Part shown: positions 2,228 through 26,673 of the stretch, one piece after another
Layout: each line of letters starts with the position of its first letter
How positions within the stretch are numbered: position 1 is the stretch's first letter
Source: Phycisphaerales bacterium
Lineage (GTDB): Bacteria; Planctomycetota; Phycisphaerae; Phycisphaerales; UBA1924
Assembly: GCA_011053195.1 (NCBI GenBank)
Contig: DRKT01000157.1
Location: 1 to 32,923 of the forward strand
DNA length: 32,923 nt
Direction: 5' to 3'
Notes under the pieces: model-generated
The model's input: only the letters and a program-made list of their open reading frames with translations
Databases searched by the model: none
What the model was told of the DNA's origin: nothing
Position numbers and translations under genes: made by a program

Positions 2228-3239
2228 TGGCGTGCGCCCCGGGCTGAGCCCCCTTGTATTCGATGATCCGGGTCCTTCGGCCTCGTATTCTGTTCAGCAC
2301 GAAGGTGGCGATCCCGATGACCATGGCGAACTGACCGATGAGTGTGTAGGTAGCCAGAAGTGAGGATGCCGAACCGGTCCTGCCCTGATTGCGGGCGCGT
2401 TGCCTGATGCGGAGCCACTGCAGGCCGTAAATCAGCAATGCCAGTCCGATGCTCAGTCCGTACAGGAACCACGACATCGCCAGGGCGGCCAGAGGGAAGG
2501 CGAAACCCCAGAAGAGCGGTCGCAGCACCCGTCTGACATTGAAGTGTTCAGGGGATCGGCCGTGCATCCACGCACCCTCGGCCGCGGCATGTCCCGCGCG
2601 GACCGAGCGCTTCCACCACTGCCAGAACGAGGTCATCGCTGCGTCGTGCCACGTCATTTCCTGATCGATCCGGCGAATCTTCCAGCCACGGGCGCGCAGC
2701 CGGAAACACAGCTCGGGCTCTTCACCCGCGATGACCGAGGGGTCGTATCCCCCCACCTCTCGCAAGGCGGCTGCACGAAACAGCGCATCGCCGCCGCAAC
2801 TCATCGCCGGCCCGATCGGGGTATCCCATTCCATATCGGTGAGCCTGTTGTATCGTGAGGCTTTGGGGAATCGTTCCCGGCGTCGTCCGCAAACCGCCGC
2901 GAGCCGCTCATCCGATTGCATGGCCTCCAGAGCCGCGGGCATCCATCCTGATCGGAGTTCGCAATCTCCATCGACAAACTGGACAAACTCGAGATCGGGC
3001 ATGATGGCGCCCAACGCCTCGAATCCTTCATTGCGCGCCCTGGCTGCGGTGAACGGGATCGACAGGTCCAGCTCGACGACCTCCACGCCGAGCCCGCGCG
3101 CCAGGTCCCGGCTTCCATCCGTTGAACCGGAATCGACATACACCACATGGTCCGCATGCGCCACGAGAGCGCGCAGGCACGCACCGAGCCGCTCGCCCTC
3201 GTTCCTTCCGATCGCGATGGCCCCAACCTTCGCTGTCAC
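2220..3239 (-). CDS. Glycosyltransferase family 2
   Basis: MTAKVGAIAIGRNEGERLGACLRAL...VVYVDSGSTDGS...FVQFVDGDCEL (DxD-like); C-terminal hydrophobic segments. Confidence 0.9.
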   Translation of the reverse strand: MTAKVGAIAIGRNEGERLGACLRALVAHADHVVYVDSGSTDGSRDLARGLGVEVVELDLSIPFTAARARNEGFEALGAIMPDLEFVQFVDGDCELRSGWMPAALEAMQSDERLAAVCGRRRERFPKASRYNRLTDMEWDTPIGPAMSCGGDALFRAAALREVGGYDPSVIAGEEPELCFRLRARGWKIRRIDQEMTWHDAAMTSFWQWWKRSVRAGHAAAEGAWMHGRSPEHFNVRRVLRPLFWGFAFPLAALAMSWFLYGLSIGLALLIYGLQWLRIRQRARNQGRTGSASSLLATYTLIGQFAMVIGIATFVLNRIRGRRTRIIEYKGAQPGAHANG

Positions 3240-4114
3240 GCACTGCTCCCTGATGATGCCCAGTCCAGCGGACGCTCCCGCACGATCGATTTGAAGTTGG
3301 CGCAGTTCAACTCGACGCCGAGTAGTTCACCGAGCCTCTTCAGGTCGGCATCGTAAAACATTTCCAGCGATTGCGCCCGCGCCGGCGAGAGCTCGGGTTT
3401 CGAGTCCAGCCGCCACAACCCCTTGATCCGGTCACGCCAGCCCTGAGGCACCAAGCGCCGGCGGATCTGCTTCAGCCCGGGCAGATCGAGCACCGCATCG
3501 CGAACCGGACTCTTGCGCATCCGCTCGGCGGACACATTCTGCGCCCCGGCATCGACCCACCGCATCTCGCCCTCATAGCCGAGAAACGCCCCGACTCGGC
3601 TCAGCTCCGACTGCGGATCCTCGCGCAGTCTCTCGCTGAAGACGGGCAGGATGCGGTCCGGACCGAAGGCCTCGAGCCAGGGTTCGAGCTGCATGGCGTA
3701 TCGGCCATACTCGAGCATCCACGGATTCGCATCGAGTTCATCCTCGATCGGACCGGTGACGACGCGCTGCGTCCACTCGTGGACATACTGCGACACCAGC
3801 CGATCGATCGGGTGGCGCATCACGTAAATCAGCTTGGCATCGGGCAGCACGGCACGGAACCGATCGACGGTCTGTGGATACGTCGGCAGCTTGGTGTAGT
3901 GCGTGCTCGCCTCGCCGATGATTTTCGCCTCCCGGCCCGGCTCGAACAAGGACTCATACCAGTCCGGCCCGTTGGCGAAAATCTCATCATTGGAAAAGTA
4001 GTTCGGCTCCTTGGGCTCGCACATGAACACGCCCGGCTGGGAGCCGAGCTGCTTGGCCAGCGTGCTCGTGGCACACTTCATCGCGCCGATGATGACAACG
4101 TTCGGCAGCGTCAT
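3236..4114 (-). CDS. Sulfotransferase domain protein
   Basis: Likely start at internal ATG 4114, overlapping the upstream stop: MTLPNVVIIGAMKCATSTLAKQL (5'-PAPS loop-like), KLIYVMRHPIDRLVSQYVHEW (3'-PAPS-like). The ORF extension to 4471 is not supported. Confidence 0.88.
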   Translation of the reverse strand: MTLPNVVIIGAMKCATSTLAKQLGSQPGVFMCEPKEPNYFSNDEIFANGPDWYESLFEPGREAKIIGEASTHYTKLPTYPQTVDRFRAVLPDAKLIYVMRHPIDRLVSQYVHEWTQRVVTGPIEDELDANPWMLEYGRYAMQLEPWLEAFGPDRILPVFSERLREDPQSELSRVGAFLGYEGEMRWVDAGAQNVSAERMRKSPVRDAVLDLPGLKQIRRRLVPQGWRDRIKGLWRLDSKPELSPARAQSLEMFYDADLKRLGELLGVELNCANFKSIVRERPLDWASSGSSA

Positions 4115-5133
4115 GCCTGAACGCCCCGACCAACAGTGCTCCGGCGCGAACGCTTGGGCTTGTGCGATGACCAGAAGGCGGTCCAGTTGTCGCGCAGCGC
4201 CCGCTCGGGCGTGCCGATGCGCCGGCCCTGCACCACCCGACGCCCCAGTGCCACAAGCCAGCCAAGGGTCCAGGCGATGTTCACAAGCACAAGATTCAGC
4301 CGACCGCCCGCGCCGGAAAAATATCGGCTGCGTGAGGCATAGAAATAGGCGGGCAATCTCTTGCGCGCCGCCGCGGCCGATTTGACCGGCGACGACCCGC
4401 CCCGAAGATGCACAACATGCGCCTCGGGCCAGTAGAGCACCTCGAACCCGGCCCGCCTCGCCCGCCGACAATACTCGGCATCCTCAAAGTACATGAAGAA
4501 TCCTTCATCCATCAGACCGATTCGATCGATCACCGATCGCCGGATCAGCACACAGGCAAAGCTCACCCACTCCACCCGTGTCGGGTCTTCAAAGACACCC
4601 ATCGTGACATCGTGTTTGGCAAAGAGCTTCGTGATCGGGCCGGACTGCGCCCCCGCGATGAGTTCGCTGAACACGCCCATGTCCCGGAAGCAACTGTTCT
4701 GGGGCTCGCCATCCGGCCATTCCAGCCTCGGCCCGATCAGTCCGGCGGATTGATTCTGCTCGGCAGCCCGCAACATCTCCTCGATCGTGCCGGTTCGCAC
4801 GAGCGTGTCGCTGTTGAGCAGGAGATAGAAATCAGCCCGCTCGGCCTTGATGCCGACGTTGTTGCCGGCGCTGAATCCACCATTGACTCCGCTGCGCACA
4901 AGGCGAACCCAATCGCTCCAGCCTTGCTCGGCGATCTCCGATTCGATCACATCGTCCGAACCATCGCCCGAGTCGTTGTCGACGACAATCGCGACATCGC
5001 GCGCTGGATCGAGCTGGCCTTGGAGCGTGGCCAGGCAATCCCGGACCAGCTTCGGCGTCTTGTAGTTCAGGATCACCACCGCCAGCCGCCGCGTCCGGTC
5101 CCGGTGGTGTGGCCATGAGTCGTCGGCGGTCAT
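4111..5133 (-). CDS. Glycosyltransferase family 2 (rhamnosyltransferase/WbbL-like)
   Basis: RRLAVVILNYKTPKLVRDCLATL...VVDNDSGDGSDDVI...GVNGGFSAGNNVGIKAERADFYLLLNSDT; typical GT2 motifs. Confidence 0.92.
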   Translation of the reverse strand: MTADDSWPHHRDRTRRLAVVILNYKTPKLVRDCLATLQGQLDPARDVAIVVDNDSGDGSDDVIESEIAEQGWSDWVRLVRSGVNGGFSAGNNVGIKAERADFYLLLNSDTLVRTGTIEEMLRAAEQNQSAGLIGPRLEWPDGEPQNSCFRDMGVFSELIAGAQSGPITKLFAKHDVTMGVFEDPTRVEWVSFACVLIRRSVIDRIGLMDEGFFMYFEDAEYCRRARRAGFEVLYWPEAHVVHLRGGSSPVKSAAAARKRLPAYFYASRSRYFSGAGGRLNLVLVNIAWTLGWLVALGRRVVQGRRIGTPERALRDNWTAFWSSHKPKRSRRSTVGRGVQA

Positions 5134-13695: not shown

Positions 13696-14562
13696 ATGGT
13701 TCTGATCCGCGGATGGCGCCAGTTTGATGTGATCGCGTTGGCGGTGCTGCTCACCGGCGCGATCGCTGCGTCATGGTCGGCGTGGCGCGACATTTTTTCA
13801 CAGGCGTGGCACAATCCCGAGCAATCGCACATTCTGCTGGCGATCCCGGTGGCGCTGTGGCTTGGGTGGCTCAGACGTGGACGTTTGGCGCGGTGCCAGC
13901 CGGAGCATTCGCTGCTCGGGCCGGTGGTGATCGCGGGCGCGTGGGTGCTGGGCAACATCGGGCTCAGCCGATCGATCGATCTTTTCTGGCACCTTTCGGC
14001 GATTCTGCTGGCGGCGGGCGCGATTCTGACGGTGACGGGGCCGAAGCTCTGGATCCGCTTCGCGGTGCCCGCGGTGGCGTTGCTTGCGTTGCTGCCGGTG
14101 CCGGCGTCGATTCGGATGGAGATCGCCCAGCCTCTTCAGGACATCAGCGCGAGGTGTTCGCAGTTTCTGCTTGACATCGTGGGGATCCCGGTTGTGCGCA
14201 CGGGGAATGTGCTGATCATCAACGGTGAATCGGTGGCGATCGCGGAGGCGTGCAACGGAATGCGCATGGTCGCAGCCCTGGGATTGGTGGCGTACACGTT
14301 TGCGTTCTCGATCCCGGCGAGGCGGTTGGTGCGTGTGCTGTTGCTGGTGCTGAGCCCGCTGCTGGCGGTGGTGGTGAACATACTCAGGTTGATGCCGACG
14401 GTGTTGTTCTACGGGTATGCGTCGAAGCCGACGGCCGACGCATTCCATGCGTTTTCAGGGTGGTTCATGATGGTGGCGGCTCTTGGAGTGATGTGGGCGA
14501 CGATCAGGCTTTTGCGCTGGATGGAACTTCCGGTGCTGAACTATGGGGCGATGCGCGAGTAG
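13696..14562 (+). CDS. Exosortase/archaeosortase family transpeptidase
   Basis: Multi-pass membrane protein with EACNGMRMVAALG (catalytic Cys), VVNILRLMPTVLFYGY (Arg) and DAFHAFSGWFMM (His). Start ATG 13696; the ORF extension to 13519 overlaps the previous gene and is not supported. Confidence 0.95.
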   Translation: MVLIRGWRQFDVIALAVLLTGAIAASWSAWRDIFSQAWHNPEQSHILLAIPVALWLGWLRRGRLARCQPEHSLLGPVVIAGAWVLGNIGLSRSIDLFWHLSAILLAAGAILTVTGPKLWIRFAVPAVALLALLPVPASIRMEIAQPLQDISARCSQFLLDIVGIPVVRTGNVLIINGESVAIAEACNGMRMVAALGLVAYTFAFSIPARRLVRVLLLVLSPLLAVVVNILRLMPTVLFYGYASKPTADAFHAFSGWFMMVAALGVMWATIRLLRWMELPVLNYGAMRE

Positions 14563-14565
14563 ATC

Positions 14566-15267
14566 ATGCCGATCAAACGGATCAATCCTGTTCGGAGTGT
14601 GCTGGCGCCGGTGCTGTCGGGGTGTTTGCTCGTGGTCTTGGTGGCGATGGGTGATTTGAATCCCTCGCCGCCACAGAATGTCGATTCGTACTTTGAGGAC
14701 GTGGCGCACGCAATCGACAAGATGCCATACCGGATCGGGCACTGGACGGGTTCGGATCTTGATTCGGCCCCGCCTCAGGTGGAGAGCATGCTCAAGCCGA
14801 ACCGGATTCTGCACCGCGGGTATGTCAACGACCGGGCGAGCGAGCGGGTGAGGCTGGTGATCGTGCACTGCCCGGATGTGCGGGACATGCGAGGGCACTA
14901 TCCGCCGAACTGTTATCCGGCGACGGGCTGGATGCCGGTGGACCACCGGACGCTGAGCGTGCCCTTTCCCGATGGTCCGGAGGATATTTCGGTGTATTCG
15001 TTCAGCCGATCGGGCGAGCGGGGGACGACCCAGATCGTCACGGTTGCGGTGTTCTTTGCGATGCCGGGCACGGATCGTGAGGTGTATGCGGATCTTTCGA
15101 GTGTTCGTCGTGCGTCAGAAAATCGGCGGCGGAACCTTCTTGGGTCTGCCCAGTTGCAAATCATCTTCGACGGTGTGCGATCCGACGAAGCCATCATCGA
15201 GGTCGTCAAGACCTTTGCACCGGCGCTTGAGCCGGTGATCCAAACCGTCGCGGAGGGACTGGAGTGA
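14566..15267 (+). CDS. EpsI family exosortase-associated protein (DUF3485)
   Basis: N-terminal TM, KMPYRIGHWTGSDLD, HYPPNCYPATGWMPVDHRTL motif; directly downstream of the exosortase. Confidence 0.88.
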   Translation: MPIKRINPVRSVLAPVLSGCLLVVLVAMGDLNPSPPQNVDSYFEDVAHAIDKMPYRIGHWTGSDLDSAPPQVESMLKPNRILHRGYVNDRASERVRLVIVHCPDVRDMRGHYPPNCYPATGWMPVDHRTLSVPFPDGPEDISVYSFSRSGERGTTQIVTVAVFFAMPGTDREVYADLSSVRRASENRRRNLLGSAQLQIIFDGVRSDEAIIEVVKTFAPALEPVIQTVAEGLE

Positions 15268-17540
15268 GCAATCCATTCATGGAATCGAATCGGCCTGTGT
15301 CCAAGGCTGTGCCCGAGGAGTTTGTTCCCGGTGGCGACGTGGATCAGGCATTCGACGTTGTGGGTCTGGCCAAGCGGGCGATTCGCGGTCGGGTCAAGCT
15401 GACACTTATCGTTGCGGGCAGCCTGGGACTGCTCGGCGCGATCGCCGGGTATTCGCGATCGGGCAAGACGTATGAGAGCTCGGCGACGATCCACGTGAGC
15501 GCGGATATCGAGGGCATCCTCAATGAAAGCATCGACAAGGTGGACAAGATTGACGACCTTGTGGAACGCAAGACGATCGAGTTCGAGAATGACCGTGTTT
15601 TGTTGATGGCAGCCGAGGATACCCGTCTGCGGGAAGTCGGCTGGCCCACGGGCGAGGTGGGTGCCCGGGCTCTGCGCAATGCGATTGCGACGGAATACAA
15701 ACGCCGAAAGCAATACTTCACGGTTGTTTGCACGACGGACAGCGAGGACACACCCCAAGTCGCACTGGAAGCAACCATCGACTCGTTCCTGCGATTCCAG
15801 AATGAACAAAACGGGATCGATCGAGAAACACGGGAACTGGACAAGCTGATCCGCCAGAGGGACGCGGCGATCAGCAACCTGCGCTCGGCGATCGCGGCGG
15901 CGACGGCGGAGTACGGTACCGACGACCTGTCTTCACTGATCGAGAATGCCGAGAGCAACCGAAACGAGCTCCAGAGCGATATCGAAAATCTGAATATTGA
16001 GATCAAATATCGACAGGGGCTTGGTTCAGCAAACCATTCCGAGGTGGTCGACCCGGAGGAATTGACAGCCGAGCAGCTCGCCGAGCACGATGGGCAGATC
16101 GCGGAACTGATCCGCCAACGTGAGATCCTGCGGGCGACGATCAAAACAACGCTCGAGCGGCAGGGGTCCCGGCATCCGCAGGTGCGTCAGCTCCGGGATC
16201 AGGAGCAGACGCTGACCTACCAGATCGAGGCCCGCGCCAATACGGTGAGAAACAACCTTGCCGAGATGGTACCCGAGATCGACAAGAGCAAGCTGAGTCT
16301 CCAGGAACTCCAGCATCAGCGGGACATCAAACAGGAGAAGAAGGCGCTCTCCGACCAGCGCCTGCGTGAGCTTCGCTCGGCCAATGAGACAATCAGTCAG
16401 GATAAGGAAGACCTCGAGCGGCTGCGCAACGAGCGGTCGAACCTGGCCAAGCGCAAGGCCGAGCTGAATCTTGAGCAGGATCGGATTCGCAAGGGCCGGA
16501 TCGAGATCATCACCGCACCCACAACCCCGAAACAGGCCAAGGACAAGAGGCCGATTCTGGCCGGGATGGGATTCATCGCGGGGAGCTTCTTCGGCCTGGC
16601 CGGGGTAATTGCGTACGGGACATACAAGCGTTCGTTCCGGTACGTGGATGATCTGGAATCAACAACGAGCCTTCCGCCGCTGCTGGGAACGCTGCCAGAA
16701 CTTGAGAAGAACGACAGCGAGAACGAGCGGGTCGCGGCGGTGAGTGTGCACAATCTTCGCAACACGCTGCAGGCGATCCAAGGGTACGACAATGCACACT
16801 CGGTGGTGATCGCGTGCACGAGCGCCGAGCCGGGCGATGGAAAGACAACGCTGATCCAGTCGCTCGGAGCGTCGTATGCACTGACGGGGCTGCGCACGAT
16901 TCTGGTTGATCTTGATCTTGTCGGCGGCGGGATGACCGCCCGGCTCGGACTGACGGGCAAGCGTGGCGTGGCGGATCTGCTGACCGGGCTGGAGCCGACC
17001 AAGTGCATCAAACACACGGCGACGGAGAAGCTGTACGCCCTTCCGATCGGCGACACGACCAAGTGCGGCCCCGAGCAGCTCGCCAGCCGACCGATCCAGC
17101 AGATCATCGACTGGCTTCGTGAACGGTTCGATGTGATCCTGATCGACACGGGGCCGGTGATGGGGAGTCTTGAGTCGGGCCTTGTGGCCTCGGTTGCGGA
17201 TCAGGTTTTGTTGGTGGTGGCGCGTGGGCAGGCGGACAACGTGGTGCATGCTGCGGTGAATCGGTTGAGTCGTCTTGGCGTTCGCGCGACGGGGATCGTG
17301 TTCAATCGGGCGGACCCGGAGGATCTGCGTCACAGCCTGAGCGCGGCTTCGATGGGCGCGCCGAGTGTGCACCATTCAGCACGCCAGCACCGCGAACGAT
17401 CGCTGAATGCAGATGCTTCGCTCTCGAAGGGTGAGATCGCGGGAAGCATTCCGCAGCCGGTGGAACCGGTGCCTCCGGCGACGCCGCCGAAAGGACAACG
17501 GATCGGGACGCTCAAGGCCGAGGATGAAACCGGGACGTGA
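15264..17540 (+). CDS. Wzz/GumC-like chain-length determinant fused to BY-kinase/ParA-like ATPase domain
   Basis: GTG start overlapping the upstream TGA; two TM segments flanking coiled-coil; Walker A CTSAEPGDGKTTLIQSL; ILVDLDLVGGG (A'); FDVILIDTGPVMGSLES (B). Confidence 0.92.
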   Translation: MSNPFMESNRPVSKAVPEEFVPGGDVDQAFDVVGLAKRAIRGRVKLTLIVAGSLGLLGAIAGYSRSGKTYESSATIHVSADIEGILNESIDKVDKIDDLVERKTIEFENDRVLLMAAEDTRLREVGWPTGEVGARALRNAIATEYKRRKQYFTVVCTTDSEDTPQVALEATIDSFLRFQNEQNGIDRETRELDKLIRQRDAAISNLRSAIAAATAEYGTDDLSSLIENAESNRNELQSDIENLNIEIKYRQGLGSANHSEVVDPEELTAEQLAEHDGQIAELIRQREILRATIKTTLERQGSRHPQVRQLRDQEQTLTYQIEARANTVRNNLAEMVPEIDKSKLSLQELQHQRDIKQEKKALSDQRLRELRSANETISQDKEDLERLRNERSNLAKRKAELNLEQDRIRKGRIEIITAPTTPKQAKDKRPILAGMGFIAGSFFGLAGVIAYGTYKRSFRYVDDLESTTSLPPLLGTLPELEKNDSENERVAAVSVHNLRNTLQAIQGYDNAHSVVIACTSAEPGDGKTTLIQSLGASYALTGLRTILVDLDLVGGGMTARLGLTGKRGVADLLTGLEPTKCIKHTATEKLYALPIGDTTKCGPEQLASRPIQQIIDWLRERFDVILIDTGPVMGSLESGLVASVADQVLLVVARGQADNVVHAAVNRLSRLGVRATGIVFNRADPEDLRHSLSAASMGAPSVHHSARQHRERSLNADASLSKGEIAGSIPQPVEPVPPATPPKGQRIGTLKAEDETGT

Positions 17541-18976
17541 TGAGCAGTGTGCCTCAACCAGAACAGGATTCGCCCGGCGCGGTGCTGCAACCGGCCGAAA
17601 CAAGGCTCTGGGGCTTCGGCCTCATGGAGTTGCACGATCGGTACTGGGCGAGCCGGGGATTTCAGATCGTTCGCCCGGGCGGGCCGGCACCGGACCCGGA
17701 TGGGCCTGAGCTGTTTGTGCTTCTGGATGAGAACCTGTTTGTCGGGTTCGGTGTGAGGCACATCCTTCGGACGATGGCGTGGATGCAGCCCAAGGCGATC
17801 CGCGTGCGTCTGGTGGAAACGGAGCACTCGCCTTACCGCGAGCGCGTGCTGAGTGATGATGAGGGTCGGTTTCTTCGTTTCGAGCGTCAGTACAACGCGA
17901 AGGAGCTGCACTCGGCGCAGCTCTGGGTGACACCGAAGCTGAAGTATGCCGAGCTGTGGAACAGGTCGGCGTCGGGCAAGGCGGGTTCGCGTGTGCTTGT
18001 CGATCGGATCGACAAGGATGACCGGATCGCCAAGCGGATTCCGGGGCGGATTTTCCAGGATGATGCAGCGGGTTCGGAGGCCTTTCGTCGCTGGCTTTTG
18101 CATGCGTGGGCGTCTCCGAATCTGGTGGTTCAGGGGATCTACCAGCCGTCGCCGGGGGTGTGGCTGCACGAGACGTGCCGGGTGGACCCGACGGTTCGGA
18201 TCATCGGGCCGGTGTGGCTCGGCGCGGGTCACACGATCGGCAGCGGCGAGACCATCGTCGGGCCCGCGATCGTGCCCGATGCGGCGAGGATGCTGACCAC
18301 GCCCGCGGACATCGACTGGTACACGGTGACGCATTCGTCGTGGAGGCTGATCCCGACGCTGAAGCGTCGACCGATGCGTGCGATCTCCAAGCGTGCATTC
18401 GACATCGTGGTGGCGTTGATGGCGTTGGCCGTGACGCTGCCTTTTTATCCGATCATCATCGCCTTGATTCTGCTGGAAGATGGGCGACCGATCTTCTTCA
18501 CGCACCGGCGTCAGCGGTACAACGGCAAGACGTTCCCGTGCATCAAGTTCCGGTCGATGCGGCGCGATGCGGAGGAGATCAAGGCCAAACTGATGGCGGA
18601 GAATCTGTCGGATGGTCCGCAGTTCTTCATGGGCGAGGACAATGACCCTCGGATTCTGCGTGTTGGTCGGCCGATGCGGAAGCTGAAGATCGACGAGTTG
18701 CCGCAGTTTTTCAACGTGCTGGTGGGACACATGTCGATCGTCGGGCCGAGGCCGAGCCCGGACCGCGAGAACCAGTATTGCCCGGCTTGGCGCGAGGCCA
18801 GGCTGAGCGTCCGCCCGGGGATCACCGGGCTTTGGCAAGTGAAAAGCGAACGCGAGCCACAGACGGACTTCCAGGAATGGATCCGGTACGACCTTGAGTA
18901 TGTCCAGAACAATACATGGAGGCTTGACCTCTGGATCATGCTTGAAACGGCGAAAAAGATTCTGTTCCGATCCTGA
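17537..18976 (+). CDS. Composite protein: N-terminal ELHDRYWASRGFQIVRPG-type domain plus hexapeptide-like segment plus C-terminal bacterial sugar transferase (polyprenyl-phosphate phosphoglycosyltransferase)
   Basis: C-term KRAFDIVVALMALAVTLPFYPIIIALILLEDGRPIFFTHRRQRYNGKTFPCIKFRSM...KIDELPQFFNVLVGHMSIVGPRPSPDREN...RPGITGLWQV; middle VDPTVRIIGPVWLGAGHTIGSGETIVGPAIV. Confidence 0.92.
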   Translation: MMSSVPQPEQDSPGAVLQPAETRLWGFGLMELHDRYWASRGFQIVRPGGPAPDPDGPELFVLLDENLFVGFGVRHILRTMAWMQPKAIRVRLVETEHSPYRERVLSDDEGRFLRFERQYNAKELHSAQLWVTPKLKYAELWNRSASGKAGSRVLVDRIDKDDRIAKRIPGRIFQDDAAGSEAFRRWLLHAWASPNLVVQGIYQPSPGVWLHETCRVDPTVRIIGPVWLGAGHTIGSGETIVGPAIVPDAARMLTTPADIDWYTVTHSSWRLIPTLKRRPMRAISKRAFDIVVALMALAVTLPFYPIIIALILLEDGRPIFFTHRRQRYNGKTFPCIKFRSMRRDAEEIKAKLMAENLSDGPQFFMGEDNDPRILRVGRPMRKLKIDELPQFFNVLVGHMSIVGPRPSPDRENQYCPAWREARLSVRPGITGLWQVKSEREPQTDFQEWIRYDLEYVQNNTWRLDLWIMLETAKKILFRS

Positions 18977-18995: not shown

Positions 18996-21900
18996 ATGAG
19001 ATCACACAAACAACGTGTTCTGAAACGTTTGGCGATCCTGGGCACACTTGCAGCAGTGGTGCTGGCGGTCGGGCTGGTGCTTGTGGTCGCCAACACACTC
19101 CAGAAGCAGCGGATGCTGACCGATGCGCGGAATACCGGCCTCGCGGCATACGATGCTGGAGAGTATGACATCGCGGTCGAGAAGCTCGGATATGTCCATT
19201 CCCGGCAGAGTGATGACCCGGAGATTGCATACAAGCTCGCCGACGCGAGCCGACACGTGCCGAGACCGAATCGCGAGCATCTCCGTTCGGCTGTTCTGCT
19301 GGCGCGTCAGGCATCGAGCCTGGCCCCCACCGATCCCAAGCCGATCGAGCTGGAACTCGAGCTCAATGAGATGCTGAATCAACAGACGGAGCGATTGTCG
19401 GCGGCCGATCGTCTCCTGGCATTGGACCCCAACAATGAGGCCGCCCTGACGGCCAAGGCCAAAGCACTCTCGGCGCTCGGCCGGACGGACGAAGCGCTCG
19501 AAGTGGCCCGAGATTTGGCCGAGTTGATGCCTGACAATTCTGATGCGCACCGGCTCGTGATCGCGCTGCTGGCCAGCGAAGACGAAGCGGTCGGAAAGAC
19601 GCAGATCAGGGACTACATCAAAGAACTGGCCAAGATGCATCCGGTTGATCCGGACTTCACCATCCTGCGCATCCACGCAGCGGCTCTGATCGGTGATGTC
19701 GAACACGCCCGAACAATCGCCGACACGCTGAAAGATGCCCAGTTCGACGCGGAGAACCTGACCGAGGCGGTGCGGGCGCTCGATCTGCTCGGGATGCGCA
19801 GTGACGCCGATGATCTGCTGGATCGGTACGGTCAGGACCCGGAAATGTCGAAAGCGACGGCGGTGCTTGCCGTGCGTCGATTGTTCATGCGTGGTCGGCC
19901 GTCAGAGGCGAAACAGGTCGCGGAGAGGGCTTTGGAAGCCGATGGCACACCGGATCCGGAACTGATCCCGTGGGCGCTGGCCTGCGGTATTGATCTGGAC
20001 CAAGCAACGATTGAATCGGTGATCTCGGCTTCGGGTGAAGAATCGGCGTACTACAAAGCGATCGTGGATGGGTTTGATGCTCTGGAATCGGGTGATGCGG
20101 CATCGGCCAGAGAGATCTTTCGCATGGCGCTCGCGGCGAGGCACAACGACCCGCTCGCGGGGGCGCTGTTGGCCGATGCGCACGACCGCCTGGGCGCGTG
20201 GAATGACGCGGCTCGAGAGCGTCAGATGGTGCTTCGCGCCGCGCCGGAGTTCACGACGGTTCGTCTTGCCTATATCGAGTCGCTCCTTGACCGCCACAAG
20301 CCGGTGGAAGCCGATGCGGTGGTTCGTGAGGGGTTGAACCTTGATCCGAGCAATGGCGCGCTGCTTCTGGCTCATGTGCTTGCCGTCGCGGACATGACGT
20401 CGACGGGCCAGGCCCAGCCGGAGGAGATCCGCGGGGCGATCCGGGTGTGCCGGGCGCTCGAAGACGGGACCGATGGCGTGACACCGGCAACGATTCCTCT
20501 GGCGCGGCTGCTCGTGGCCTCCGGCTCCGATATCGAGGCGCGGCACACAATCGGCCGCTTACTTGATGCCGATCCCGACGCGCTTGATGTGCGACAACTC
20601 CTGGCACTTGGATCGCTGATGAAGCTGTACCAGTTTGAAGGCGAGGAGGGGATTGAATCCATTATTGACCGGTCATCGAATCTTGATCCGTATGTACTTC
20701 TTGAGCGTGCGACGGCATTGGCCGACGCGGGAGATTCGGAGGCCGGGCTGGCACTGATTGACGGGCGATTGGAGGCTGCCAAAGCCGCATCGGATGCCCA
20801 TGTGACCCAACTTGAGATGGCCCGCGCGGCGTATCTTGACCGGATTGCCGATCCCGACGCCATCGAGGCGATTCGCGCGCTGGCCGATCGCTATCCGGAT
20901 ACACCTTCGATCCAGGTGCTGGTGCTCGAATCGCGGTCGGCGTGGTCGGACCGGGAGCTGATCTCTCGCGCGGTGGCCAAGCTTCGCCAGGCGACGGGGG
21001 ATGATTCGACCGCGTGGCGCATCCATGAGGCCCGACGTCGGTTGACATTCGACCCAACCGAGCAGAGCGCCGCGAGTGTCGTGACGCTGTTGGACCCGAT
21101 CGTGTCATCACCCATGGCGGACCCGATGGCCAACCTGGTGCTGGCGGACGCGATGAGCGTTCTCGGCGATAGCGAGGCGGCAGCGGACAACCTCACACGC
21201 GCCATCGATGGGGGAATGAATAATCCCGGCTTAATCCTTCGCCTGATCGCCATTCGACAGGCACAGGGCGACATCGATGCAGCACGACGTCGGGCGATCT
21301 CACTGGCAGGAGTCGAGCCGGTGAGCGCCCAGACGCGGCGCGAACGTGTCGCAGCCATGGAACGGCTTGGACTCTTTGAACAGGCGCGTCCCGACGCTGA
21401 CATCCTCGCGCAGTCGGATGATCCGCGGGACCTGCTCGTGTCGGCACGGATCGCGGGCCGGCTTGGGGATACACAAGCGGTCAACGATCGGCTCGATCGT
21501 TTGTTGGATTCGGAAGCGATCCCTGAGGCGGTACTCGGGCCGGCACTGCAGGCGCTGGCGGAAGCGGGTCGGACGCGTGATGCCTACGCGCTGCTCGAGA
21601 GGATGCGAACCGATCCACCTTCGACGGCATTCACACTCGCCGAGGTCGCCTTGATGCTGCAGACCGGACGGACAGAAGATGCCGTCGGGCTGCTGAAAGA
21701 TCGGTACGAGAACAATCCGAATACCACACTGGCAGCGGCCAGGGTCCGGCTTCTGGCGAGGCTCGGTCGGGCAGACGAGGCGAGCGCGGTTTGCAACGCG
21801 GCGCTCGCGTCGGCGCCCGAGAACTCGGAATTGCAGCTGCTGCGAGATGCGATCTCGCTGGTGGAGGCGCCGAGCGGGGCCAATCTTGCCTCCGGACAGA

Positions 21901-23165
21901 CGGATGCCGCCCGGCGGGTGATCGATGCAATCCGACAGCATGCAATCGAAAGCAACGACCCGGATGCGCTGATCGCACGGCTGCGCGAGGTGACGAATGA
22001 TTCGCCGACGTACTTTCCGGCGTGGTCGGTGCTGACAACGCAGCTCCAGAAGGCGGGCCGAATCGAAGAAGCGGCGGAAACGGCGCAGACGGCGATGCGA
22101 CTCCTGCCGGGCGATCCCAGACCGGCGAGATTGGCGGTCGATGCGCTGCTCCTGCAGGGCGAGCCCCGGCTGGCGCTGGCGGTCGCGGTCGAGTGGAGCC
22201 GGCGCTCGCGACCCGAGTCGTACGAGGCGGACACGACCATCGCAGCCCTGCAGACTCGGCTCGGCAACTATCAAAATGCGGTACGGGCACTGGAGCCGTG
22301 GACCGACAGAATCAGCTCCGACCCCGATGCGACGCCGATCCTGGTCCGGCTTCTGGCAACACTTCGAATCATGCAAGGGCTCGAAGATCAGGCGTGGGCT
22401 CAGCTCAAACAACGGATCGAACATGACGAAAGATGGAAATCCCATGCGATCGAGGTGGCCCGCGATCTGCTGAACCGCGAGGGTTCGCCCGAATCGGCCG
22501 CCGCGTGGCTGGACCGTGTCGAGGCAACGCGGTCGCTTGACAGCGAGGACACACTCCGGATGGCCCAGGCTCGGCTTGACATCGCTTCCAAGACGGGGAG
22601 CGAATCGGACGCCTTGGCTGTGATCGAAACGCTGGATCGGCTCGAGGCCATGCCAGACAGGCCTGTCTCGCTGGAACGTGGAGCAGGTCTGCTCCGGATC
22701 GCCGGTGAGCGACTTTTGGGCCGTGAAGACGCGGCAGCGAGACACGCAGCCGAGCTTGCCAATGCGTACCCCGACGACCCGATCGTGCTGGGCATGCAGG
22801 CCTTGACGATTATCGAAGCGGGCGGTGACAATCAGGCGGCACTCAAGGCTGCGAAAAAGGCTGTCACACTGGCAGAATCCGGTTCTGACGATCGCTTCAC
22901 GCTCACCAACGCCCTGGATGCGCTGGGCCGGGCACAGCTGGCACTGGGGCATCCAGACGAGGCGGAGAAGGCCTTTCGGCGGATTCTCGGACTTCAGATC
23001 GGGTCGGTATCGGGGAGGCTTGGTTTGGCCGAGGCCCTGCATGCTGCAGGCAAGCTCCGGGAGGCCAAGCGGATCGCCAATGATCCGACCCTGATCGGTG
23101 AGATCGAGGCAGTGCCGACCCTTCGTGGTCGGTTTGAGCACCTCCGGGCCGAGCTCGATCGCTGA
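18996..23165 (+). CDS. Large TPR-repeat protein with N-terminal TM anchor (PrsT-like role possible)
   Basis: 1389 aa; N-term LAILGTLAAVVLAVGLVLVVANTL; repeated A-rich helical pairs (e.g. LLALDPNNEAALTAKAKALSALGRTDEALEVARDLAELMPDN; ALGRAQLALGHPDEAEKAFRRILGL). Confidence 0.85.
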   Translation: MRSHKQRVLKRLAILGTLAAVVLAVGLVLVVANTLQKQRMLTDARNTGLAAYDAGEYDIAVEKLGYVHSRQSDDPEIAYKLADASRHVPRPNREHLRSAVLLARQASSLAPTDPKPIELELELNEMLNQQTERLSAADRLLALDPNNEAALTAKAKALSALGRTDEALEVARDLAELMPDNSDAHRLVIALLASEDEAVGKTQIRDYIKELAKMHPVDPDFTILRIHAAALIGDVEHARTIADTLKDAQFDAENLTEAVRALDLLGMRSDADDLLDRYGQDPEMSKATAVLAVRRLFMRGRPSEAKQVAERALEADGTPDPELIPWALACGIDLDQATIESVISASGEESAYYKAIVDGFDALESGDAASAREIFRMALAARHNDPLAGALLADAHDRLGAWNDAARERQMVLRAAPEFTTVRLAYIESLLDRHKPVEADAVVREGLNLDPSNGALLLAHVLAVADMTSTGQAQPEEIRGAIRVCRALEDGTDGVTPATIPLARLLVASGSDIEARHTIGRLLDADPDALDVRQLLALGSLMKLYQFEGEEGIESIIDRSSNLDPYVLLERATALADAGDSEAGLALIDGRLEAAKAASDAHVTQLEMARAAYLDRIADPDAIEAIRALADRYPDTPSIQVLVLESRSAWSDRELISRAVAKLRQATGDDSTAWRIHEARRRLTFDPTEQSAASVVTLLDPIVSSPMADPMANLVLADAMSVLGDSEAAADNLTRAIDGGMNNPGLILRLIAIRQAQGDIDAARRRAISLAGVEPVSAQTRRERVAAMERLGLFEQARPDADILAQSDDPRDLLVSARIAGRLGDTQAVNDRLDRLLDSEAIPEAVLGPALQALAEAGRTRDAYALLERMRTDPPSTAFTLAEVALMLQTGRTEDAVGLLKDRYENNPNTTLAAARVRLLARLGRADEASAVCNAALASAPENSELQLLRDAISLVEAPSGANLASGQTDAARRVIDAIRQHAIESNDPDALIARLREVTNDSPTYFPAWSVLTTQLQKAGRIEEAAETAQTAMRLLPGDPRPARLAVDALLLQGEPRLALAVAVEWSRRSRPESYEADTTIAALQTRLGNYQNAVRALEPWTDRISSDPDATPILVRLLATLRIMQGLEDQAWAQLKQRIEHDERWKSHAIEVARDLLNREGSPESAAAWLDRVEATRSLDSEDTLRMAQARLDIASKTGSESDALAVIETLDRLEAMPDRPVSLERGAGLLRIAGERLLGREDAAARHAAELANAYPDDPIVLGMQALTIIEAGGDNQAALKAAKKAVTLAESGSDDRFTLTNALDALGRAQLALGHPDEAEKAFRRILGLQIGSVSGRLGLAEALHAAGKLREAKRIANDPTLIGEIEAVPTLRGRFEHLRAELDR

Positions 23166-23335: not shown

Positions 23336-23364
23336 TTGACCCACTCCCCCAATGCGGGCATGAT
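23336..23364 (+). promoter_or_regulatory. Candidate sigma70-like promoter upstream of the first PTPQ-tailed gene
   Basis: TTGACC - 17 nt - CATGAT, read directly; about 112 nt upstream of ATG 23476. Confidence 0.4.
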
Positions 23365-23475: not shown

Positions 23476-24225
23476 ATGGACGCGACCAGATTCACCGTAC
23501 TCACGGCATTGGCTCTTGCAGCCGGTACCACCGCCGCTCAAAGCCTCACGGTTGTCAATCAGCCTTGGCCGGGCGAGAGCACCCACGCCCAGATGCTTGC
23601 TGAGGCCTTCGGGGGTTCGTTCAGCTCGATGGGGCAGGTCACTGGTGTCAATGCCAAGGCCGGTCAGTCGAACTTGGTAGACATCGGCTACACCAACGGC
23701 TCATACACCTTCACTCGTGTCGCCGACATGGGTGGCTCGGCTGGCAATGTCAGCCTGAAGAACCTGATGGGCGGCGGCGACGACGACATGTGGCGCGATG
23801 GCTCATACCGCGCCACTTCGCTCGGCGGCTACTCGTCGCTCTCACATGAGTTCGGCTACATCGGCGCCAACGGCGAATACCACACGATCGTTGCCGAGGG
23901 TGTTTCGGCCCTCGAAAATTCGATTCACCCCAATGAAGATTTCACATGGGCGATCCGCACGAGCAACGGCCGCGAGTACAACTCCAACGAGATGCTCAAC
24001 GGCAGCGGTGCCGACCACATGGTCACATACGCGATGTATGACGATTCGAACACACTCATCGGCGCAGTGCTCTTCTTTGAAGACTGGGCCGGGGGCAACA
24101 GCGACTACGACTACAACGACTACGCGGTCATGCTGACACTCGCCCCGACGCCTCAGGCGGCACTGCTTGGGCTGCTCGGGCTCGGCGGTGTTGCAGCGGG
24201 TCGCAGACGCCGGACCATCGCCTGA
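23476..24225 (+). CDS. Secreted DUF4114-like protein with variant PEP-CTERM-like (PTPQAA) C-terminal sorting signal, paralog A
   Basis: Signal peptide MDATRFTVLTALALAAGTTAAQS; LFFEDWAGGNSDYDYNDYAVMLTLAPTPQAALLGLLGLGGVAAGRRRRTIA. The ORF extension to 23230 is not supported. Confidence 0.88.
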   Translation: MDATRFTVLTALALAAGTTAAQSLTVVNQPWPGESTHAQMLAEAFGGSFSSMGQVTGVNAKAGQSNLVDIGYTNGSYTFTRVADMGGSAGNVSLKNLMGGGDDDMWRDGSYRATSLGGYSSLSHEFGYIGANGEYHTIVAEGVSALENSIHPNEDFTWAIRTSNGREYNSNEMLNGSGADHMVTYAMYDDSNTLIGAVLFFEDWAGGNSDYDYNDYAVMLTLAPTPQAALLGLLGLGGVAAGRRRRTIA

Positions 24226-24258
24226 TTGCGACACCGGGATTCGATTGGCTTCCTCGTG

Positions 24259-24294
24259 CAGACCTCCAGTTTGGGGGTCTGTTTTTCTGTTTTT
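24259..24294 (+). terminator. Rho-independent terminator after paralog A
   Basis: CAGACCTCC-AGTTT-GGGGGTCTG (9 bp, one T-G) followed by TTTTTCTGTTTTT. Confidence 0.85.
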
Positions 24295-24383
24295 CCCTAT
24301 AAAATCCATGCAAAGTGGATACAATGCAACCGCGGACTGGTGGGGTTCGTGTATGTGATGTGTTGCAAAGAAGGGGATAAAAA

Positions 24384-25094
24384 ATGTCTCAGGTGAATAA
24401 TGTGTTCCTTGCCGGGTTGGCCGCCTCGATCGGTGCTGTCGCCGGTGCTCAGGAGGGGTATACCGTCGTGCAGTCGCCGCCGACCAATGAGGCGACCCAT
24501 GCCGAGATCCTCGCGGGCGCCCTCGGTGGGACGTTCAATGAAAACGGACTCGGGCTGTCCAACGGCACCATCTCGGCTGTTCGCAACATCGACAGTGCGG
24601 CCTTTGAAAACAATGACCAGAACTGGGCTCCCGGCACCTACAACGCCAAGATCGTCGCCCACGAATCCGCTGGTCGTTCGCTGTTCGGATTCGCAACCGG
24701 ATCCGATGGCGGCGAGGGGGATGGAGGTTTCCTTGATTTTCATGCCCTGCTCAATACGAGCGACATCGGCTCCTCTGTCACGGTACAGATCCCGGAGCAG
24801 TTCCGCTGGGCGCTCCAGCTCGGCAACAGCACCAACGGTCATGTCTACACCTCCCGTGAGTCGGACAACAACGGGCTGGACGTGATGGTGTCCTACACCA
24901 TCCGCAATGAAGCCGACAAGGTCATCGGGATGGCGCTTTTCTTCGAGGACCGGATCATCGGCAGCGATCGTGACTTCAACGATGTGGCGGTCCTGCTGAC
25001 ACTCGCGCCGACGCCTCAGTCGGCCCTGCTCGGGATGCTCGGCCTTGGCGGATTGGGTGCTGCGGCGGGTCGTCGGCGGCGACCAATCACCTGA
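24384..25094 (+). CDS. Secreted DUF4114-like protein with variant PEP-CTERM-like (PTPQSA) C-terminal sorting signal, paralog B
   Basis: Signal peptide MSQVNNVFLAGLAASIGAVAGAQ; ALFFEDRIIGSDRDFNDVAVLLTLAPTPQSALLGMLGLGGLGAAAGRRRRPIT. Confidence 0.88.
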   Translation: MSQVNNVFLAGLAASIGAVAGAQEGYTVVQSPPTNEATHAEILAGALGGTFNENGLGLSNGTISAVRNIDSAAFENNDQNWAPGTYNAKIVAHESAGRSLFGFATGSDGGEGDGGFLDFHALLNTSDIGSSVTVQIPEQFRWALQLGNSTNGHVYTSRESDNNGLDVMVSYTIRNEADKVIGMALFFEDRIIGSDRDFNDVAVLLTLAPTPQSALLGMLGLGGLGAAAGRRRRPIT

Positions 25095-25120
25095 TTGATC
25101 CCCGACACACGCATTCTCCA

Positions 25121-25156
25121 AGCGGGACTTGAAAAAAAGTCCCGCTTTTTTCGTTT
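25121..25156 (+). terminator. Rho-independent terminator after paralog B
   Basis: AGCGGGACTT-GAAAAA-AAGTCCCGCT (10 bp perfect stem) followed by TTTTTTCGTTTT. Confidence 0.9.
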
Positions 25157-25288
25157 TCCGAGTCCGATGCACCCAATTTCCGGGTAGTTTACGCATATAC
25201 CCTTGTTCTCGGGGTATTTTGGCTCCATAGCAGGCTAGACTCAATCAGGGTGGTGCCCATTCGATGGGTACCGGATCAAGGGGATGGA

Positions 25289-25789
25289 ATGTCACACCTG
25301 GCGATCGGACTCTTTGTGTCGGCTACAACATTGTCGGTACATGCTCAACATGCCCCGAACATATTCCGAATTTCTTCAGCGTTCCGTGTCGATGCCCGGA
25401 GCATCCCTCAAGCGGCGCCCATCCCGAGCGGCACCAAACCGATGACCAAGCGTCCAGATTCCGACGGCTTGTCCGGCTCGCACGTGTTTGATCCGCTCGC
25501 CCCATATATGACCGACGATTCGCCGGCGAGTGTGGGTACTCTTGATGCCCGATATCGCTGGGCCTTGGGGGCAGATGTTGCCGGTTTTGGCCTCAACATA
25601 TCGCCCTCATTCGATGCGTTCGGGTTCTCTCTTGGAGATTCTCATTCGGTCGAGGTCTTTGATGGCGAGTTTGGGCCGGCCGTGGTGCAGATGGTGGTCG
25701 TTCCCTTGCCTCATGCAGCTCCTCCGGCTCTGGCGGCGATGCTGGTTGCCGGGTGTGCGACCCGCCCGAGACGCGTCAGGGTCGGATAA
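25289..25789 (+). CDS. Secreted protein of unknown function with a divergent CTERM-like tail (VPLPHAAPPALAAML...RPRRVRVG)
   Basis: Start ATG 25289 gives MSHLAIGLFVSATTLSVHAQ signal peptide; C-terminal Pro motif, short hydrophobic stretch, Arg-rich end. The ORF track begins upstream at 25250. Confidence 0.65.
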   Translation: MSHLAIGLFVSATTLSVHAQHAPNIFRISSAFRVDARSIPQAAPIPSGTKPMTKRPDSDGLSGSHVFDPLAPYMTDDSPASVGTLDARYRWALGADVAGFGLNISPSFDAFGFSLGDSHSVEVFDGEFGPAVVQMVVVPLPHAAPPALAAMLVAGCATRPRRVRVG

Positions 25790-25980
25790 CTCATGGTTCA
25801 CGGGATCTGTGGTCCGTGAACATCCACCCGAATGTCCTGCGTCATCCCAGCCGTAACATATTATCTAAATTGAATATTCAATCCTTTCACTCGCCTTGCT
25901 TGGCCCCTGAATGCCGTCATGTTTCGGGTGCTGGTGTATGTATGCCGGCAGGAACAGAGACGAATAGAGGGGTCCGAATC

Positions 25981-26673
25981 ATGAACCACACAGCACTGTT
26001 TACCGCCGTTGTGACCATTGCGGCAGGGATCGCGAGCTCGGCCTCTGCTCAGTACACCCGGGTTCGGGCGCCGCGTGGCGCAGAGGCGAATCATGCTGAG
26101 ATCCTCAGCCGGGCCTTGGGAGGAACCTTCGAGAGGTCCGGGAAGCGTGATTACACCAACGGCAGCATCCTTGCCGATCGCATGCACGATTACAAACGCA
26201 ACAACGATCAGATCTGGGATGCCGGGATGTACCATGTTCAAAGCATTGCGCACGAGGCCGGATATACGCACTCGATCGGCGTGATCGCCGGCGAAAGTAG
26301 GGGCCTTCGTGACTTCCAGACCGTGCTCCGGTCCCAGGAGATCGGAAGCCGACAGACCGTGCGCATGGACTCCGAGTTCCGCTGGGCGCTCAAGGTTGAT
26401 CCGCAGTTCGGCGGCAATCTGTTCACCTCACGCGGACATGACAACGCCGATTGCATCGATCACCAGGTGAGCTACCGGCTGACTCGGGACAATGGTGACC
26501 TGTTCGGGTATGCGTTGTTCTTTGAGGACATCTACGGCGGGGGCGACCGGGACTACAACGATGCCGCGGTGTTGCTGACCATCGTCCCCACACCTCAGGC
26601 TGCGATGCTCGGGCTCGCTGGGATCGGCGGTCTCGGTGTGCTCGGCGGTCGGCGTCGCCGGTCGGTGGGCTGA
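25981..26673 (+). CDS. Secreted DUF4114-like protein with variant PEP-CTERM-like (PTPQAA) C-terminal sorting signal, paralog C
   Basis: Start ATG 25981: MNHTALFTAVVTIAAGIASSASAQ; ALFFEDIYGGGDRDYNDAAVLLTIVPTPQAAMLGLAGIGGLGVLGGRRRRSVG. Confidence 0.88.
   Translation: MNHTALFTAVVTIAAGIASSASAQYTRVRAPRGAEANHAEILSRALGGTFERSGKRDYTNGSILADRMHDYKRNNDQIWDAGMYHVQSIAHEAGYTHSIGVIAGESRGLRDFQTVLRSQEIGSRQTVRMDSEFRWALKVDPQFGGNLFTSRGHDNADCIDHQVSYRLTRDNGDLFGYALFFEDIYGGGDRDYNDAAVLLTIVPTPQAAMLGLAGIGGLGVLGGRRRRSVG

Follow-up and report, generated by a model that had tools for sequence, protein, structure and literature searches.

Tandem lectin-like proteins with PTPQ tails as probable cargo of a second, EPS-locus exosortase in a Phycisphaerales bacterium and its relatives

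The window analyzed here, a stretch of 32,923 nucleotides from a Phycisphaerales bacterium (contig DRKT01000157.1), contains an extracellular polysaccharide (EPS) locus that ends in a tandem of three secreted paralogs, A, B, and C (Table 1). Glycosyltransferases and a flippase are encoded farther upstream of the exosortase locus, and the PrsT-like TPR gene is the last before the substrate genes. The presence of an exosortase, called in a first-pass annotation, was confirmed by the PF09721 score (cut-off 25.7) and by an alignment in which the conserved and invariant Cys, Arg, and His are all present; the protein also passes the generic exosortase profile TIGR02602 (116.5 bits, cut-off 105.55) and falls below the XrtA profile TIGR03109 (123.3 bits, cut-off 208). 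The enzyme lies about 9 kb upstream of the triad and is not adjacent to it. A sulfotransferase-domain protein (3236–4471, minus strand) is encoded amid the glycosyltransferases, and the EPS may therefore be sulfated.

Table 1. Coordinates of the EPS-locus genes, the paralogs, and the associated expression elements in the window
Feature	Position	Strand	Remarks
EPS-locus exosortase, E-type, CNG motif	13696..14562	+	PF09721 171.8 bits; XrtA-like, below XrtA cut-off
EpsI/DUF3485 exosortase partner	14566..15267	+	PF11984 E 1.2e-12
Polysaccharide chain-length/tyrosine autokinase-like ATPase	15264..17540	+	AAA_31, TIGR01007
Polyprenyl glycosylphosphotransferase (EPS initiating sugar transferase)	17537..18976	+	PF02397 E 1.4e-58
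Large PrsT-like TPR protein	18996..23165	+	TIGR02917 101.8 bits, cut-off 312; position conserved in family loci
Promoter-like element TTGACC-N17-CATGAT	23336..23364	+	Upstream of A; conserved
Paralog A	23476..24225	+	249 aa; signal peptide, DUF4114/LecB-like domain, APTPQAALLGLLGLGGVAAGRRRR tail
Terminator-like hairpin after A	24258..24282	+	With T-run
Paralog B	24384..25094	+	PTPQ tail
Terminator-like hairpin after B	25120..25147	+	With T-run
Paralog C	25981..26673	+	ATG with AGAGGGG upstream; predicted fold LecB/BclA-like up to the PTPQ tail

The ORF lists, an alignment, and a genome-wide pattern search all bore out the earlier observation of three tandem, PTPQ-tailed secreted paralogs. B shares 42% and C 37% identity with A, and the alignment recovered in all three the two motifs that had been reported as shared, LFFED-x(5-6)-DxD[YF]ND-xAV[ML]LT and [TN]HA[EQ][MI]Lx2A[LF]GG[ST]F. 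Each tail consists of PTPQ, a hydrophobic span, and RRRR, with P-T-P-Q, G-G, and R-R-R-R invariant in the aligned tails, and a DNA pattern for the PTPQ tail matched the 2,746,280-base genome three times, at A, B, and C, with no match to the reversed control. The genome as a whole was covered by profile and pattern searches, and sequence was extracted for selected stretches. A PEP-CTERM-like sorting signal was recognized by a C-terminal Pro motif, a hydrophobic helix, and an Arg cluster on a signal-peptide protein in a genome that encodes an exosortase; A–C possess all of these, their signal peptides having been read by eye. Scores against named tail profiles fell below threshold, namely for the PEP-CTERM motif PF07589 (cut-off 20.7; A 15.8 and B 11.9 bits in the genome search, C 14.4 bits in a protein scan) and for PTPA-CTERM (NF033465; B 12.9 bits, cut-off 29), and VPLPA-CTERM (TIGR03370) matched none of A–C. 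A further plus-strand ORF (25289..25789) lies between B and C, with a signal-peptide-like start and a VVVPLPHAAPPALAAMLVAGCATRPRRVR end whose PLPH...RPRR resembles a degenerate locus-type tail; its codon-position GC is weaker than that of the neighboring genes, a homolog search returned none, and it may be a fourth substrate that is either young or in decay.

Upstream of A, five genomes share CTTGAC-N17/18-CATKAT, with CTTGAC and CAT.AT unchanged in all of them; the promoter scan alone performed no better than chance. This conserved promoter-like element, together with the hairpins following A and B, suggests that the triad genes are separately controlled. Sigma-54 control of the kind described for the PEP-CTERM/EpsH (XrtA) system (PMC1569441) was rejected, as no such box is seen by eye upstream of A and a sigma-70-like element is conserved there instead.

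The first-pass annotation had assigned the paralogs a DUF4114-like domain, possibly one that binds calcium. Profile scores for this domain are marginal (PF13448, cut-off 27): A–C reached 25.2, 22.7, and 26.9 bits (E 1e-5 to 2e-4) in single-protein scans and 27.2, 23.6, and 28.8 bits in the genome search, where two of the three exceed the cut-off and no other DUF4114 matches occur. The domain is better read as a LecB/BclA-type two-calcium lectin. In Foldseek, the 19 top PDB matches to the model of paralog C (pLDDT 85) are lectins of the LecB/BclA/RS-IIL type, all at probability 1.00 (BclA: probability 1.00, E 8.5e-5). For paralog A, whose model is weaker, no PDB match was significant, the best plausible one being the LecB-like lectin thrombocorticin (probability 0.6). 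The first alignment used for structure prediction included rows taken by position from related genomes, and the second drew only on the window and its related loci. LecB was also the best PDB match to a domain-only profile (E 0.03), with LecB/PA-IIL accounting for seven of eight matches up to E 10; a 60-residue single-sequence search of the PDB gave no match and the full-length profile a chance match only. Across 31 homologs the acidic motif E-D-...-D-x-D-[YF]-N-D is conserved (D, D, N, and D invariant, E near-invariant), such that paralog C agrees with the LecB/PA-IIL-type lectins in both predicted fold and calcium-site acidic residues, and the predicted fold strengthens the idea of a calcium-binding domain. 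The DUF4114 domain of Myxococcus PilY1.1 was earlier linked to LecB-type lectins, calcium, and EPS-dependent motility (PMC9109919). The beta-sandwich and D-x-D-[YF]-N-D calcium motif of LecB/PA-IIL, BclA, RS-IIL, and PilY1.1 are paralleled in the predicted structures here; unlike in those proteins, an exosortase-type tail directly follows the last strand and the genes sit in an EPS cluster. Outside Planctomycetota, an Acidobacteria MAG (L060) encodes a tandem pair of DUF4114-like proteins that end in true PEP tails.

The spacing between domain and tail is regular: PxP begins 8 residues after D-x-D-[YF]-N-D in 24 of 31 homologs, and 8–11 residues after it in 30 of 31, whatever the tail class. 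In the profile alignment, LecB (a chain of 114 residues) ends 10 residues past the same N-D, so the middle residue of PxP coincides with LecB's last residue. The C-terminal glycine of one LecB subunit helps form the sugar site of its neighbor (PMC4463410). By analogy, exosortase cleavage at the motif might free a C-terminus that builds the sugar site, the lectin becoming active only after sorting, although we hold this to be doubtful.

The source genome encodes a second exosortase besides that of the EPS locus, and this duality recurs in many genomes of the family. At least one exosortase was found in 147 of 150 genomes of the same family, and a profile of the EPS-locus enzyme, which separates the types (main group at least 348 bits, all others at most 213), detected the EPS type in 66 of the 150. 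In a tree of 60 exosortases, the EPS type (E-type, CNG) and the other type (H-type, CSG) form two clades with 100/100 support. The CSG type is near-universal, and genomes have it whether or not they encode the EPS type. In many cases it is fused to an EpsI-like part; its best known match is XrtD, below the cut-off, and it is read here as the housekeeping enzyme. All scores against named exosortase subtypes (XrtA, XrtD, XrtW, XrtV, XrtB, and others) were below their cut-offs. The second exosortase (G000, contig C99:6–785, L024; also L148 and L149) is XrtD/XrtW-like and about 620 aa long in relatives, and genus g24 (G023, G083, G109, G127, G137, G141, G145) has a third, EPS-like exosortase scoring about 199–213 bits against the EPS profile.

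A PEP-CTERM search of the source genome yielded about a dozen ordinary tail proteins away from the locus, mostly ending in PAPASLALLGLGGLA-x-RRRR, with some PTPAS, PTPST, and PSPSS. Ordinary PAP/PEP-type tails in the same proteome had been named beforehand as evidence against a dedicated pairing; they are there, but they do not refute it, because the genome has a second exosortase and each tail class may have an enzyme of its own.

Among relatives, 38 EPS loci could be read over sufficient length, and in these the order exosortase, EpsI, kinase, sugar transferase, TPR is conserved. Downstream of the TPR gene, 32 of the 38 carry one to nine same-strand, tail-bearing secreted ORFs (86 in total), the first usually 8.6–9.8 kb past the exosortase; the remaining six have none by the letter pattern used. 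About 0.03 such ORFs per locus would be expected by chance, assuming 35 tails per 3.4 Mb. The triad itself is syntenic in G056 and G095 (all three genes), in G130 (A and C), and in G054, which belongs to another genus. The passengers at the loci fall into 15 clusters, mostly not common to other sites, and the tail class is therefore kept across different passengers; DUF4114 was dropped as a defining feature of the substrates, since most other loci carry other passengers. In G042 (C2:82500–102400, L119), the EPS locus is followed by nine consecutive tail-bearing secreted ORFs, including two DUF4114 homologs. The locus order also recurs beyond the family, both in its sister families and in a few more distant ones; PLP tails (PLPAP, PLPPA) often adjoin the locus there, and PEP tails occur elsewhere on those same stretches.

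Locus tails across the family are mostly VPLPxAA, and they differ from the tails found elsewhere in the same genomes, which are typically PAP[AGS]S. PAP occurs in 4 of 35 locus tails but in 79 of 106 tails from other sites in 11 of these genomes (p 3e-11), and PxPQ in 13 and 0, respectively (p 2e-9). A classifier of locus versus other tails attained a leave-one-genome-out AUC of 0.94 over all loci, misplacing 12 of 86 locus tails and 11 of 106 others; in the window's genus, few letters set the locus tails apart (Q, and A at +5). A possible bias is that the tails elsewhere were picked by PF07589 and the locus tails by letter pattern, but the contrast holds with PF07589 as the selector for both sets (PLP in 9/9 locus tails versus 5/106 elsewhere, p 3e-10). 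When a tail model was built from 12 genomes and applied to other genera, it gave matches at E ≤ 1e-8 in 15 of the 35 genomes that encode the EPS exosortase versus 2 of the 81 that do not, or 12/23 versus 2/42 with one genome retained per genus and state; the model scores the window's genus low, since PTPQ and PLP differ.

These comparisons bear on the strongest competing explanation, that both exosortases take both tail classes and that locus tails are alike merely through tandem duplication and close kinship. The window's triad are indeed paralogs of common descent, and the two tail classes share a general layout; moreover, genomes that have the EPS exosortase also contain some VPLP-type tails away from the locus, which together with the classifier's misplacements makes cross-talk between the enzymes possible. 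Shared ancestry sits poorly, however, with locus tails that are distinct across the 15 passenger clusters and with the positive held-out co-occurrence test. It also sits poorly with the DUF4114 homologs: PAP tails are borne by 9 of 10 in genomes without the EPS exosortase versus 2 of 21 in genomes with it (p 2.5e-5, genome kinship ignored), indicating that the tail follows the exosortase and not the domain. We accordingly regard this explanation as unlikely.

The first-pass annotation had gone further in proposing that PTPQ is a specific code that co-evolved with one EPS exosortase subtype. The confinement of PTPQ-type tails to the locus in six genomes is in keeping with such a code: a PTPQ-tail model gave 48–70 bits for the locus ORFs and 28 bits for the next best match, a result in which only the absence of other matches is informative, as the locus ORFs are within the model. 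Against it, PxPQ accompanies three or four separate exosortase branches (the window's genus and G054, G053 with G063, G055 with G116), and the locus tails of the same clade are mostly PLPxAA. Locus tails in the window's genus are PTPQ, with PAPQ in two orthologs; those of G054 are PTPQ/PVPQ/PTPH, those of G053 PTPQ/PAPQ, and those of G063, G055, and G116 PLPQ. Neither the proposed conservation of PTPQ nor its tie to a single exosortase subtype survives, and PTPQ is instead a lineage-level version of the broader locus signal, which leaves the specific code distinctly improbable. That the tails are plain membrane anchors and no exosortase substrates is hardly credible. Any secreted protein would be anchored by a hydrophobic helix with an Arg run, but 31 homologs retain the PxP motif, the occurrence of the tails follows that of an exosortase, and PEP-CTERM profiles match them, if weakly.

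Synteny, tail class, and the co-occurrence of tail and exosortase support the remaining part of the original proposal, that the paralogs form a substrate family encoded at the EPS locus and probably dedicated to its exosortase. We consider it probable that the triad is the lectin-like cargo of a second, EPS-dedicated exosortase system, with the PAP tails left to the housekeeping enzyme. Under this arrangement, the EPS cluster would make and export extracellular polysaccharide, and A, B, and C would be exported by Sec via their N-terminal signal peptides and retained in the inner membrane through their hydrophobic C-terminal helix, with the Arg residues inside. The locus exosortase, with EpsI, would then cut them at or near P-T-P-Q, and the freed LecB/BclA-like, calcium-dependent lectin domain may bind the EPS or anchor it to the cell surface. 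Other PEP-CTERM-like proteins, with PAP[AS]SLALLGLGG tails, would be handled by the housekeeping EpsI-fused exosortase.

The nearest described system is PEP-CTERM/EpsH (XrtA; PMC1569441), which resembles the present one in its EPS cluster with exosortase, EpsI, tyrosine kinase, sugar transferase, and PrsT-like TPR protein, in its tripartite C-terminal tails, and in substrates encoded by single genes with long upstream regions. It differs in that the exosortase here is below the XrtA cut-off, the tail is PTPQ/PLP rather than PEP, and the substrates stand in tandem at the end of the locus in a genome also served by a second exosortase. The VPLPxAA locus tails of most relatives recall VPLPA-CTERM with XrtD (TIGR03370/TIGR04152), but here it is the housekeeping enzyme, not that of the EPS locus, that is fused and XrtD-like, and the relatives' locus tails that were tested remained under the VPLPA-CTERM cut-off (best 16.7 bits, cut-off 25.35). 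PTPA-CTERM is similar to PTPQ in its letters, with a score below its cut-off. The triad is genuine, conserved, and encoded at the locus, and it is the probable cargo of a second exosortase, bearing a variant signal of a known sorting type. No description of a dual exosortase and tail arrangement in Phycisphaerae was found in the literature searched, which was mostly without subscription journals and later work on exosortase subtypes.

The pairing of exosortases with tails is mostly guessed from genome content. In dozens of the genomes surveyed here, two exosortase clades, two tail classes, and locus-linked substrates coexist within one genome, which makes exosortase specificity directly testable. 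The direct tie between an exosortase and lectin-like cargo within an EPS cluster would also suggest a concrete reason for the presence of exosortases in EPS loci.
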